From the NCBI GenBank assembly GCA_036559195.1, contig DATBTN010000026.1:1-45556 (forward strand): a stretch of DNA of 45,556 nt. The letters are read 5' to 3'. Below the pieces are notes generated by a model. It worked only from the letters and a program-made list of their open reading frames with translations. It was not told where the DNA came from and did no database searches. Every line of letters starts with the position of its first letter. The first letter of the stretch is position 1. This document shows positions 21,269 to 24,453 of the stretch, one piece after another. Both the position numbers and the translations under genes were made by a program. The DNA comes from Candidatus Baltobacteraceae bacterium (GTDB lineage Bacteria; Vulcanimicrobiota; Vulcanimicrobiia; Vulcanimicrobiales; Vulcanimicrobiaceae).

Positions 21269-21931
21269 CTAGCGTTTGCGAGCCACGGTCAATCCGTCGC
21301 CGATCGGCAGCATGCTCGCATCGACGCGTTCGTCGCGACCGATCTTCGCGTTGAGCGCCTGGAGCGCGAGCGAATCCGCATCGTCGGGCGACGGATGCGC
21401 GACCTCGCCGCCCCAAAATACGTTATCGATCGCGATGAGACCGTTGGGATGAAGCAGCGCTAGGGCTCGCTCGTAATACGCATCGTAGCCGACCTTGTCC
21501 GCATCGATATAGCAGAAGTGAAAACTCTCGGCGTCGCCGTCGGCGAGCAGACGGTCCAACGTGTGGACGGCCGGAGCCAGACGCAAGTCGATCTTCGCCG
21601 CAACGCCGGCGCGCTCCCAATAGGGTTTGGCAATCGACGTATACTCTTCGCTGACGTCGCAGGCGACCAGATGGCCGTCCTCCGGCAGCGCCAACGCCAT
21701 GCCCAGCGCACTGTAGCCGGTAAAGACGCCGACTTCCAAAACGCGCTTCGCACCGGTGAGGCGGATGAGCATCTGCATGAACTGCACTTGATCGGGGCTG
21801 CTCTGCATGTTCGCGTTCGGCAGCAGCGCGGTCGCGCCGCGCAACTCGCGCTGCACCGGCAGTTCGCGCAGCGAAACGTCGAGTACGTACTGGTAAAACT
21901 CCGGGGGCAACCCAAAGGCCGTCCGACTCAT
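21269..21931 (-). CDS. SAM-dependent O-methyltransferase, caffeoyl-CoA type
   Basis: The 220-residue class I methyltransferase has SAM motif [18 protein letters not shown], an acidic post-I strand (VACDVSEE), and the metal/substrate motif [18 protein letters not shown], followed by [12 protein letters not shown]. These mark the cation-dependent catechol/caffeoyl-CoA O-methyltransferase family. It is the first gene of the transcription unit O-methyltransferase, fused flavoprotein, SDR. A catecholic or hydroxylated aromatic substrate is likely by family, but the true substrate is unknown. The start ATG at 21929-21931 has a GAGGA 9 bases upstream. The 60-nt gap to the divergent DUF3311 gene must hold both promoters. 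Confidence 0.88.
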
Positions 21932-21991
21932 TGCTGTGCATCCTCGAGAAGCGCGTAGGGGTTCATGACCTGCCTATACTAGTTAACGGGG

Positions 21992-22198
21992 ATGATTCCA
22001 TTGCGTCCTTCAGCCAAGGCCGCGCGGATCGCGCTGGCGGTTGTCCCGGCGATCATGCTGACGCTCGCGGTTCCGTTTGCGAACCGCGTGGAACCGCGCA
22101 TCGCGGGCGTCCCGTTCTTGCTTGCCTGGATCACGTTTTGGGTCGCGATCACGCCGCTCTTCCTCTTCACGATCTACCGGCTGGAGGGACGCCGTTGA
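21992..22198 (+). CDS. DUF3311 small membrane protein, second copy
   Basis: The 68-residue protein has two hydrophobic helices (about 12-28 and 40-60): LAVVPAIMLTLAVPFANRVE, then VPFLLAWITFWVAITPLFLF. It is the partner of the downstream symporter: its stop TGA overlaps the TTG start of that gene. It is divergent from the O-methyltransferase/flavoprotein/SDR unit, so the transporter and the aromatic-oxidation genes may share a regulatory gap. Sequence identity with the copy at 8871-9065 is low. Confidence 0.85.
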   Translation: MIPLRPSAKAARIALAVVPAIMLTLAVPFANRVEPRIAGVPFLLAWITFWVAITPLFLFTIYRLEGRR

Positions 22199-23637
22199 GC
22201 CCGCCGGGCCAGGCGCTTACGATCGTCGCCGCGATCGTGCTCGGCACGATCGTTTTCGCACTTTTCAGCGTGCGGCGGATCAAGATGGATCCGCAGCAGT
22301 ATCTGGTCGGCGGCCGCTCCTTCGGATCGCTGTTTTTGTGGATACTGCTCGCCGGCGAAGTCTACACCAGTTTCACGTTCCTCGGCGCGGCCGGCTGGGC
22401 GTACGGCCGGGGCGCCCCAGCGTTTTACATTCTGGCGTACGGCACGATCGGTTACACGATCGGCTACTTCTTTTTGCCGGCGGTTTGGAAGATCGGCAAA
22501 GATCGCGGACTGCTGACCTTCCCCGACTTCTTTCTCGATCGCTACGGCAGTAAGCCGTTAGCCATCGGCATCGCGATCCTGCAATTCTTCCTGGTGGTGC
22601 CGTACGTAACGCTCCAGCTTTCGGGCCTGCAAACGCTGCTCTCGATCGCCGGCTACGGCCGCTACAACGCGACGGTCGCCGTCGGCTGCTCGTTCATCTT
22701 GATCGCGCTCTTCGTCTTTACCGCCGGCCTGCGCGGTACCGCTTGGGCGAGCATCGTGAAAGATGCGTTCGTACTCGGCGCGGTGATCTTCGCCGGTATC
22801 TTCTTACCGATCCACTTTTTCGGCTCGCCGGCAGCGATGTTCGACAAAGTCCTTGCGGCCCAACCGCATTGGTTCACGCTCGCGCCCGGGGCGTCGAATC
22901 AGGGCGTCGTGTGGTACATCTCCACGGTACTGCTCACGAGCATCGGCTTCTACATGGGCCCGCATACGATCAACGCCGTCTTTTCGGCCAAAGACGGCGA
23001 CGCACTGCGGCGCAACGCCATCTTCTTGCCGCTCTATCAACTCGTGCTGCTGCTGGTCTTCTTCGCCGGCTTCTCCGCACTCGTACTCGTACCCGGCCTC
23101 AAGAACGTCGATCAATCGTTCATGATCGTCGTGCAGCGCTACTATCCCGCATGGGTACTCGGCCTCGTCGCGGGAGCCGGCTGTTTAGCGGCGTTATTAC
23201 CCGCGTCGGCGCTCTTACTCGGAGCCGCCGGCGTCTTCGCCAAGAACGTCCTCGGCGACGGATTGAACGTCGCGACGAGCGACGCCGCCCGCACCCTGGC
23301 AACGCGCATCATGGTCATCGTCATCGCCGCCATGTCGCTGATCTTCTGGATCTTCTACAACCAAACGCTCGTGCAGCTTTTGCTCTACTACTACAACGGC
23401 GTAACGCAATTCATGCCCGGGTTCGTCTTCGCCCTTATCTGGCGCCGCGCAAACGCCTGGGCGGTCGGCTCGGGAATCGTCGCGGGCGAAATCGTCGTCG
23501 CCTATCTCGTTGCGAACCCCGCGATTCCGACCTGGGGTATCAACCCGGGCTTCTTCGCCTTGGCGGTAAATGTGGCGGTTTGTGTGGGGGTGGCTCTGCT
23601 GCGGCCTCGGGTTAGGGTCTTGCCAACGCCCGTTTAG
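22195..23637 (+). CDS. Sodium:solute symporter (SSS family), second copy
   Basis: The 480-residue, about 13-helix symporter has family segments MDPQQYLVGGRSFGSLFLWI, GEVYTSFTFLGAAGWAYGRG, TAGLRGTAWASIVKDAFVLG and GPHTINAVFSAKDGDALRR. The start is TTG 22195, chosen because GGAGGG lies six bases upstream and the codon overlaps the stop of DUF3311. A further upstream reading to 21931 would be non-coding. With DUF3311 it forms an MctP-type uptake pair, plausibly for an organic or aromatic acid. Its last codons and the stop TAG lie inside the left arm of the structured repeat at 23628-23776. Confidence 0.9.
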   Translation: MSPPGQALTIVAAIVLGTIVFALFSVRRIKMDPQQYLVGGRSFGSLFLWILLAGEVYTSFTFLGAAGWAYGRGAPAFYILAYGTIGYTIGYFFLPAVWKIGKDRGLLTFPDFFLDRYGSKPLAIGIAILQFFLVVPYVTLQLSGLQTLLSIAGYGRYNATVAVGCSFILIALFVFTAGLRGTAWASIVKDAFVLGAVIFAGIFLPIHFFGSPAAMFDKVLAAQPHWFTLAPGASNQGVVWYISTVLLTSIGFYMGPHTINAVFSAKDGDALRRNAIFLPLYQLVLLLVFFAGFSALVLVPGLKNVDQSFMIVVQRYYPAWVLGLVAGAGCLAALLPASALLLGAAGVFAKNVLGDGLNVATSDAARTLATRIMVIVIAAMSLIFWIFYNQTLVQLLLYYYNGVTQFMPGFVFALIWRRANAWAVGSGIVAGEIVVAYLVANPAIPTWGINPGFFALAVNVAVCVGVALLRPRVRVLPTPV

Positions 23638-23776
23638 CGGTGCGGGGGCGTTGCGGCGGGACGCCCACTTTTTCGCATCCTGCGAAAAAGCTGCTCGCTG
23701 AGTCGTCGCTCCCGCCATCCTGGCTCCGCTCCGACCTCAGACGCCCGCCGCAACACCCCCGCACCGCTAAACGGGC
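23628..23776 (+). repeat. Structured 3' element, copy 1 (large palindrome with 95-nt core)
   Basis: Arms 23628-23660 and 23744-23776 are 33 bases each and complementary with a single mismatch. Inside, the core 23655-23749 contains a perfect 10-bp hairpin, CTTTTTCGCA (23668-23677), loop TCC, TGCGAAAAAG (23681-23690), and a second stem CTGAG (23698-23702) with CTCAG (23736-23740). The core is 95 bases and differs from copy 2 (read on the opposite strand) at only five positions. The left arm includes the stop codon of the symporter gene. There is no T-tract after the structure, so it is not a standard intrinsic terminator. Confidence 0.9.
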
Positions 23777-23789
23777 TCGGTATGAATTG

Positions 23790-23816
23790 AAAATCGGCTC
23801 TTGCGAGAGCGATTTT
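23790..23816. other. Perfect-stem hairpin in the AT-rich spacer
   Basis: AAAATCGGCTCT, loop TGCG, AGAGCGATTTT: an 11-bp stem with a single bulged G. It lies just after copy 1 of the structured repeat, at the border of an AT-rich stretch (about 23781-23880). The role is unknown. The 207 nt between the two repeat copies contain no convincing gene. Confidence 0.65.
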
Positions 23817-23983
23817 GGAATTTGCTATGGTGGGTTTGGGTAATGGGGTTTTTGGCGAATCGCAATTTTATTTTTTTTATGTTGGTTGGCGGGCCGCCGA
23901 TCGTCGTGTGTGCGCGGGGAAAGAGGGACTGATGCGCGTGTTTCATCGCGCGCACGCGACGCGTGCCTTGGCTGGAACTCGCT

Positions 23984-24134
23984 GGCGCGTTTGGTGGCGT
24001 AGCGCTGGTTCGGCGGGCGTCTGAGGTCGGAGCGGAGCCAGGATGGCGAGAGCGACGACTCAGCGAGTAGCTTTTTCGCACGATGCGAAAAAGCGGACGT
24101 CCCGCCAAACCAACGCTACGCCGCCAAACGCGCC
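23984..24134 (-). repeat. Structured 3' element, copy 2 (inverted)
   Basis: This is an inverted copy of the element at 23628-23776. The core 24012-24106 has the same length and 90 of 95 identical bases. Its hairpin is GCTTTTTCGCA (24070-24080), loop CGA, TGCGAAAAAGC (24084-24094). Its arms (23984-24017 and 24101-24134) differ in sequence from those of copy 1, yet are complementary to each other at 31 of 34 positions. The element ends 7 bases from the stop codon of the zinc-ribbon gene (24142, minus strand). So it lies at a gene's 3' end in the same sense orientation as copy 1. Confidence 0.9.
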
Positions 24135-24141
24135 GGCCAGC

Positions 24142-24453
24142 TCACCGCGAACCAGGCCGAGTAGCGAAGCAATCCCGACAATACACCGGCTTATCGCCGC
24201 GGGGTTGGAACGGAACCTCCGCCACGCCCCCGCACTGGCTACACGTCGCCTGGAACATCTCGCGCGTGCGGGCACCGCCGCCGCCCGCTCCTCCGCCGCT
24301 CTGCGAGCGCATCGCTTTGCGCGCTTGGCGGCAGTCGGGACAGCGGTTGGGTTTGTTCGCAAAGCCTTTGGTTGCGTAGAATTCTTGCTCCCCGGCGGTA
24401 AAGGCAAATTCGCGGCCGCAATCCACGCAGTTCAACATTTCATCGACGTACAC
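24142..24453 (-). CDS. Double zinc-ribbon protein
   Basis: The 103-residue protein has four CxxC knuckles: CVDCG and CPDCRQAR forming one ribbon (about residues 9-42), and CSQCGG and CRDCF forming a second (about 71-97). A Gly-rich linker (GGGAGGGGA) joins them. The first ribbon contains EFAFTAGEQEFYATKGF, a pattern common in small bacterial zinc-ribbon proteins of unknown function. The start is GTG 24453, preceded by AAGGAG at a 9-base distance. Nucleic-acid or protein binding is likely by fold; no specific role can be stated. It converges on the symporter gene across the structured-repeat region. Confidence 0.85.
   Translation of the reverse strand: MYVDEMLNCVDCGREFAFTAGEQEFYATKGFANKPNRCPDCRQARKAMRSQSGGGAGGGGARTREMFQATCSQCGGVAEVPFQPRGDKPVYCRDCFATRPGSR

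Follow-up and report, generated by a model that had tools for sequence, protein, structure and literature searches.

Two inverted copies between a symporter and a treble-clef gene belong to a covarying family of folded repeats in Eremiobacterota

Two inverted elements lie between a sodium:solute symporter gene and a convergent treble-clef gene in the window, by which we mean the whole stretch of 45,556 nt from a Candidatus Baltobacteraceae genome that was analysed. They belong to a large, covarying family that, in the genomes searched, is confined to a single class of Eremiobacterota. On balance, our data favour a dispersed, non-coding DNA repeat of the REP/MITE-like kind, in which the selected unit is probably a strand-specific folded structure. 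A literature search returned no paper on repeats of Eremiobacterota, and the repeat family of this uncultured phylum has apparently not been described so far. The whole analysis is computational, and nearly all genomes compared are metagenome-assembled (MAGs).

The two copies occupy positions 23628-23776 on the plus strand and 23985-24133 on the minus strand (Table 1). A repeat finder reported an inverted similarity of 149 nt between them, and their cores differ at five sites, whether counted within the inner 88 positions or within the 83-nt inner core. This confirms the first-pass annotation, which had described two inverted copies with cores of equal length, five differences and the hairpins CTTTTTCGCA/TGCGAAAAAG and CTGAG/CTCAG; both hairpins are present in the cores at the places given there. 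Its proposed length of 95 nt describes a real core, but the element is larger: each core caps a hairpin that is far longer, and the outer arms belong to the element. These arms span 33 bp in copy 1 (97% complementary in the repeat finder) and 33-43 bp in copy 2 (23975-24017/24101-24143; 86% complementary). Across the 28 innermost arm pairs, the two copies are distinguished by eight two-sided and three one-sided changes. Minimum free energies of -103.1 and -100.5 kcal/mol (z about -11; reached by 0 of 200 shuffles) place both folds far beyond chance, and the two copies are the only hairpins with a net arm score of at least 15 in the 45.5-kb window. A U-tract is missing after copy 1 as well as after copy 2, in line with the earlier argument against a standard terminator, and the sole terminator-like match of the region (23646-23666) lies inside the element and within shuffle expectation.

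Table 1. Coordinates of the two copies and the adjoining genes (positions in the window)
Feature	Position	Strand	Remark
Sodium:solute symporter (SSF) gene, upstream of copy 1	21931-23637	+	stop TAG 23635-23637
Copy 1, left outer arm, 33 nt	23628-23660	+	outer end overlaps the symporter's last codons and stop
Copy 1, unpaired junction segment ACGCCC(A)	23661-23667	-	GGGCGT on folding strand; nearly invariant in family
Copy 1, hairpin A, 10 bp, 3-nt loop	23668-23690	-	
Copy 1, hairpin B	23696-23743	-	tip GCCA-TCC-TGGC at 23714-23724
Copy 1, right outer arm, 33 nt	23744-23776	+	one mismatch relative to left arm
Copy 2, right outer arm (copy read on minus strand)	23985-24017	-	pairing traceable out to 23975
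Copy 2, hairpin B	24018-24065	+	
Copy 2, hairpin A	24071-24093	+	
Copy 2, left outer arm	24101-24133	-	pairing traceable to 24143, into treble-clef stop codon
zf_Tbcl treble-clef gene, convergent, adjoins copy 2	24142-24453	-	stop codon 24142-24144

Several relatives carry treble-clef-like sequence almost directly after the symporter stop, and the spacer of ~500 nt that holds both copies therefore looks inserted. The C-terminus of the symporter is too variable among relatives to tell the origin of the arm that overlaps its stop.

A search with copy 1 returned further copies on many contigs of the 2.48-Mb source genome; in every one of these, the long outer arms are complementary to one another and differ in sequence from copy to copy. 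The covariance model found 13 copies in the source genome. Of the 81 genomes searched from the same family, 58 proved to contain the element, as did 77 of the 149 from the phylum, where the listed matches all belong to three families of a single class. Genomes carry few copies, about 22 at most. In an exact-pattern scan of named genomes, all 40 stretches recovered came from MAGs titled Candidatus Eremiobacterota or simply 'bacterium'. The family consensus comprises the outer stem, an unpaired ACGCCC, hairpin A, an unpaired TRCT and hairpin B, the base of which stacks directly on the outer stem. The predicted unit, 110-190 nt long across the family, is a three-way junction of a 25-45-bp outer stem with hairpins A and B. 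A first, sequence-based alignment of 26 sequences showed two-sided changes in 33 of 44 pairs, with 224 double-changed cells against 72 in shuffles, and slid structures gave 13-18 pairs. In the alignment of 91 sequences, the value rose to 40 of 44 pairs (1119 double-changed cells against 373 in shuffles), a figure to be read with caution as this alignment was fitted to the model. Many covarying copies in the source and related genomes are what the first-pass annotation had expected of a structured element, and its failure to assign a named class is matched by Rfam: nothing came near a gathering score, and the weak matches were mostly to generic long-hairpin miRNA models, on both strands. IMG/VR contained no exact match to the element, on which ground viral carriage was rejected.

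Two further repeats came to light in the same genomes. A shorter one (TGTCATCCTGAGCTTGTCGAAGG and its inverse) is scattered near the elements in many of these genomes, where it too forms inverted pairs; examples are L162 4135-4240, L163 6035-6111, L169 136-254 and many flanks. On contig C10 of genome G020 (192265-192476), short repeated matches to the tip region of hairpin B are spaced 43 and 96 nt apart and may perhaps represent a smaller related repeat.

Covariation alone is silent on the functional strand, which is revealed by the bias between G.T and A.C, by loop purines and by tandem-GA replacement. On the strand on which the element had been read in the first-pass annotation, the arms of 73 largely non-redundant copies contain 74 A.C against 22 G.T oppositions. 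The sign is unchanged in copies antisense to their gene (18:1), which led us to reject transcription-coupled mutation as the source of the excess. It recurs in an independent set (32:5), and order-level relatives give 13:7, which is not significant alone. As the model scores G-U as a pair, a search bias would act against the A.C excess. Unpaired columns are 80% pyrimidine on the annotated strand and hence 80% purine on the opposite strand; in copy 1, the internal loop of hairpin B is purine-rich there (GGA/GGGA). At three dinucleotide steps of hairpin B, 258 of 272 cases are either two Watson-Crick pairs (178) or tandem 5'-GA-3'/3'-AG-5' on the opposite strand (80), leaving 14 exceptions. With RNA parameters, the opposite strand gives the more stable fold in 87 of 91 copies (mean difference 9 kcal/mol); with DNA parameters, the two window copies differ between strands by 5 and 0.5 kcal/mol. 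Because of the A.C excess, the purine-rich unpaired sites, the tandem GA and the better folding, we conclude that the constrained fold is the one predicted for the strand opposite to the annotated one, i.e. minus for copy 1 and plus for copy 2. The proposal of a sense-strand RNA at the 3' end of the upstream gene is not supported by these observations.

A functional RNA on the folding strand would leave the same strand signature, which speaks against the DNA-repeat reading. Such a structured non-coding RNA, mostly antisense to the upstream gene, might act in trans or be mobile, its fold combining a three-way junction with tandem sheared G.A pairs. It would fit the purine-rich unpaired sites, the replacement of Watson-Crick steps by tandem GA, the greater tolerance of G.U than of A.C, the stronger RNA fold and the constrained core. 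We nevertheless rate it as rather unlikely, given that, on the folding strand, G.U makes up only some 5% of the pairs in the arms and less than 1% of those in hairpin B, that no promoter-like site was found in the window region near the copies and that no sequence is conserved outside the arms in the copies compared. Moreover, the folding strand is antisense to both neighbours in two thirds of the copies in tandem contexts, and the core inverts in place (see below). Since G.U is rare on the folding strand and a promoter-like site is lacking nearby, we lean towards a folding strand that acts as single-stranded DNA rather than RNA.

The genes beside the other copies in the source genome are ordinary. 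Sorting of non-redundant copies by context yielded 34 tandem sense, 15 tandem antisense, 17 convergent and three divergent copies, based on approximate gene calls from a simple home-made caller that misses small genes such as the treble-clef one. The sense bias in tandem contexts (34:15) has a p of 0.009, a value that is optimistic because copies share ancestry. Divergent spacers account for 29% of the spacer length free of elements, yet copies avoid them. In sense copies, the stem begins nearly at the stop codon; for 59 of 66, the distance from the upstream stop to the outer-stem tip is 20-77 nt. Close pairs follow the '+ then -' order seen in the window. The first-pass expectation that copies would lie mostly just behind stop codons, with sense orientation favoured, is thus borne out. 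In the infB|rbfA spacer, which holds a copy in many genera, orientation is reversed in two of the 14 loci compared, and the core is also found either way round at an orthologous site inside a gene. That gene, of the DNA polymerase III alpha type and called dnaE2-like from the domains of the G033 protein, carries the element in frame in G033, G058 and G050; it is the one intragenic locus among 91 copies. Together with copies inside operons, at infB|rbfA and in the atpG|atpD spacer (genes identified by eye from translated ends), it argues against an obligatory transcription-end structure. In the dnaE2-like gene of G033 (L102 608-4069), a second in-frame stretch, translated as VMLSLSKHP, resembles the shorter scattered repeat TGTCATCCTGAGCTTGTCGAAGG, and this polymerase gene seems to tolerate repeat insertions. 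Downstream of infB in G040 (contig C9), locus L159 has unmatched arms and a right flank that belongs to another copy's locus; the simplest account is a fusion of two copies, by recombination or perhaps as an artefact of assembly.

The position directly behind stop codons, the sense bias, the presence in operons such as infB|rbfA and atpG|atpD and the avoidance of divergent spacers would all suit an element of the sense mRNA, that is a 3'-untranslated or intercistronic stabiliser or processing hairpin, REP-like in effect. This is an unlikely explanation, as G.T is depleted and loops are pyrimidine on the sense strand, about 30% of tandem copies are antisense, orientation varies at the same site, and a mere hairpin effect does not need a conserved core.

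Core and arms evolve differently. Copies L163 and L172 have identical cores (0/83 differences), and 10 of 28 arm pairs are changed, all of them two-sidedly; L135 and L136 differ at 1 of 84 core positions, with eight two-sided and two one-sided changes of arm pairs. These pairs were chosen for similar cores, so that the contrast is no rate estimate, and gene conversion between cores is an alternative account of identical cores with different arms. A fairer measure comes from orthologous copies, in which divergence amounts to 8.9% in the core, 26% in the arms, 36% in the neighbouring spacer and 15% in coding flanks. With 8.9% in the core against 36% in the spacer, the core is therefore constrained or repeatedly converted, and the arms are free in their letters and bound in their pairing. 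At the dnaE2-like site, flanks and arms are collinear, and the core is inverted in G050 relative to G033 and G058. Template switching between inverted repeats inverts spacers (PMC8604942), and copying of one arm onto the other by template switching is a known route to arm homogenisation (PMC8794818). By analogy, the core inversion in G050 would be the spacer inversion expected of such switching, and the arms diverge fast and in concert, as template switching might give.

Gains and losses of whole elements were read from empty sites. At one clean empty site, G055 compared with G020 (L259/L103), the whole hairpin is absent, arms included. Comparison within genera gave three empty sites in all. 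In G040, a stub of the outer arms remains, which marks a loss by deletion, and the G046 site is ambiguous, being readable as gain or as loss. Insertion itself has therefore been seen at best once, at L259/L103. No target-site duplication is clear at this one clean site, the flanks of which are too diverged, and the absence of arm sequence from L259 made us reject the idea that arms are copied from target flanks. A composite transposon, considered for copies spaced ~11-12 kb apart in G119/G019, was rejected as well, as their separate sites are shared with other genomes. Of the 12 element-rich genomes searched for PF01797 (RAYT/Y1 transposase), 11 lack it, the source genome among them, and the positive controls were detected. 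A reverse transcriptase is absent from the source genome; both enzymes were rejected as mobilisers on these grounds. Within the hairpin B tip of L286 (G020, contig C33; orthologous to L131), we observed a MITE-like insert of ~210 bp with the ends GGCTGTCGGAGTT / AACTCCGGCAGCC and an apparent duplication TCCTGG.

Two insertion scenarios can be weighed against these data. The element might itself be a conventional MITE, moved by a DDE or tyrosine transposase and bounded by terminal inverted repeats and a target-site duplication; this would agree with its dispersal, its length of about 150-190 bp, its palindromic ends and the one clean empty site. Such an origin is improbable and largely refuted by ends that are unconserved between copies; nor is there a clear target-site duplication, and Y1 transposase is lacking as described above. 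Alternatively, the core might insert into pre-existing long hairpins, e.g. terminators, that supply the arms. REP dimers within longer palindromes are known (PMC3733652), and one core-less hairpin of 36 bp with the loop 'cgt' exists at L132 (4615-4689; G033, contig C33), where the orthologous G058 site has the full element. The core there is bounded by direct repeats ACGCCC, so that slippage explains L132 as a core deletion. Apart from L132, the core-less hairpins that reach the score threshold in 469 kb are one of 20 bp (L142) and five from another repeat, and neither the L103 site nor infB|rbfA in G050, G052 and G025, which lack the element, has such a hairpin; in G052 and G025 there is no spacer at all between infB and rbfA. 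With empty orthologous sites free of hairpins and core-less hairpins this scarce, core insertion is highly improbable and was rejected.

In placement and strand-specific folding, the element may be likened to small folded repeats of the REP/MITE type. The REP/BIME/REPIN repeats with their GTAG- and CGTC-tagged super-families are short palindromic repeats in spacers, located preferentially downstream of genes, between tandem or convergent genes, with inverted dimers and some intragenic copies; their stems form sub-families with complementary changes, and CGTC REPs lack a dedicated transposase (PMC3733652, PMC3116915). Our element shares the extragenic location downstream of genes and the inverted dimers. 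It differs in being a 110-190-nt three-way junction with two different hairpins and an outer stem of 25-45 bp of free sequence, in its low copy number and in its strand-specific tandem-GA pairs. The REP tag, a terminal GTAG or CGTC left unpaired beside a stem of 5-13 bp, is missing: GYAG- and CGTC-like letters at the folding-strand junctions are internal and partly paired, and CGTC varies. Equally missing, from 11 of 12 genomes searched, is the RAYT/Y1 transposase that marks genomes with REPs of the GTAG type. Rickettsia palindromic elements can sit in frame within protein genes (PMC3733652), to which the copy in the dnaE2-like gene is alike by description; our element is larger in architecture and intragenic at only one locus. 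Like bacterial MITEs (ERIC, NEMIS, RUP), it is non-coding, dispersed, strongly folding and next to genes. MITEs, however, end in conserved terminal inverted repeats, whereas here the ends are the most variable part, only complementarity being kept, and arms are unlike despite near-identical cores. Intrinsic terminators combine a stem with a U-tract at transcription ends, whereas the element has no T-tract and occurs within operons. Integron attC sites, which go with conserved end boxes and an integrase, are recombination sites that lie beside stop codons, fold as single strands and function in a strand-specific way. The element shares folding, position and strand specificity with them, but has no cassette array and is conserved at its tip, not at its ends; conserved letters of the attC end-box type were absent from the outer ends of the copies compared. 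Lacking an unpaired terminal tag, RAYT and conserved termini, the element is best regarded as a new variant of the REP/MITE kind.

In the DNA-repeat reading that we prefer, the folding strand would fold when single-stranded, during replication, repair or mobility, and a protein other than the RAYT/Y1 transposase would recognise the core. New copies would survive mostly between a stop codon and the next gene, and polymerase template switching between the arms would keep the pairing, rewrite the arm letters and flip the core. Any effect on mRNA, such as shielding of a 3' end, would be secondary. Against this reading stands that neither a mobilising enzyme nor an autonomous version was found, and that conservation of the core points to a function or to ongoing gene conversion; a purely selfish repeat would require neither. 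More tentatively, in a possible though less probable account, the family could be a new kind of mobile nucleic acid that is structured and has no protein gene. It would be an RNA or a single-stranded DNA, folded into a three-way junction with modules of tandem sheared G.A; the conserved core would be recognised in trans, and template switching would regenerate the long arms and now and then invert the core.

With this family, a phylum for which most knowledge comes from MAGs gains a clear structured repeat. The two-sided arm changes and the core inversion found among its copies are what template switching predicts, and the family lends itself to the study of two questions: by what means long nucleic-acid stems remain paired as their sequence changes, and how short palindromic repeats without RAYT spread and persist.
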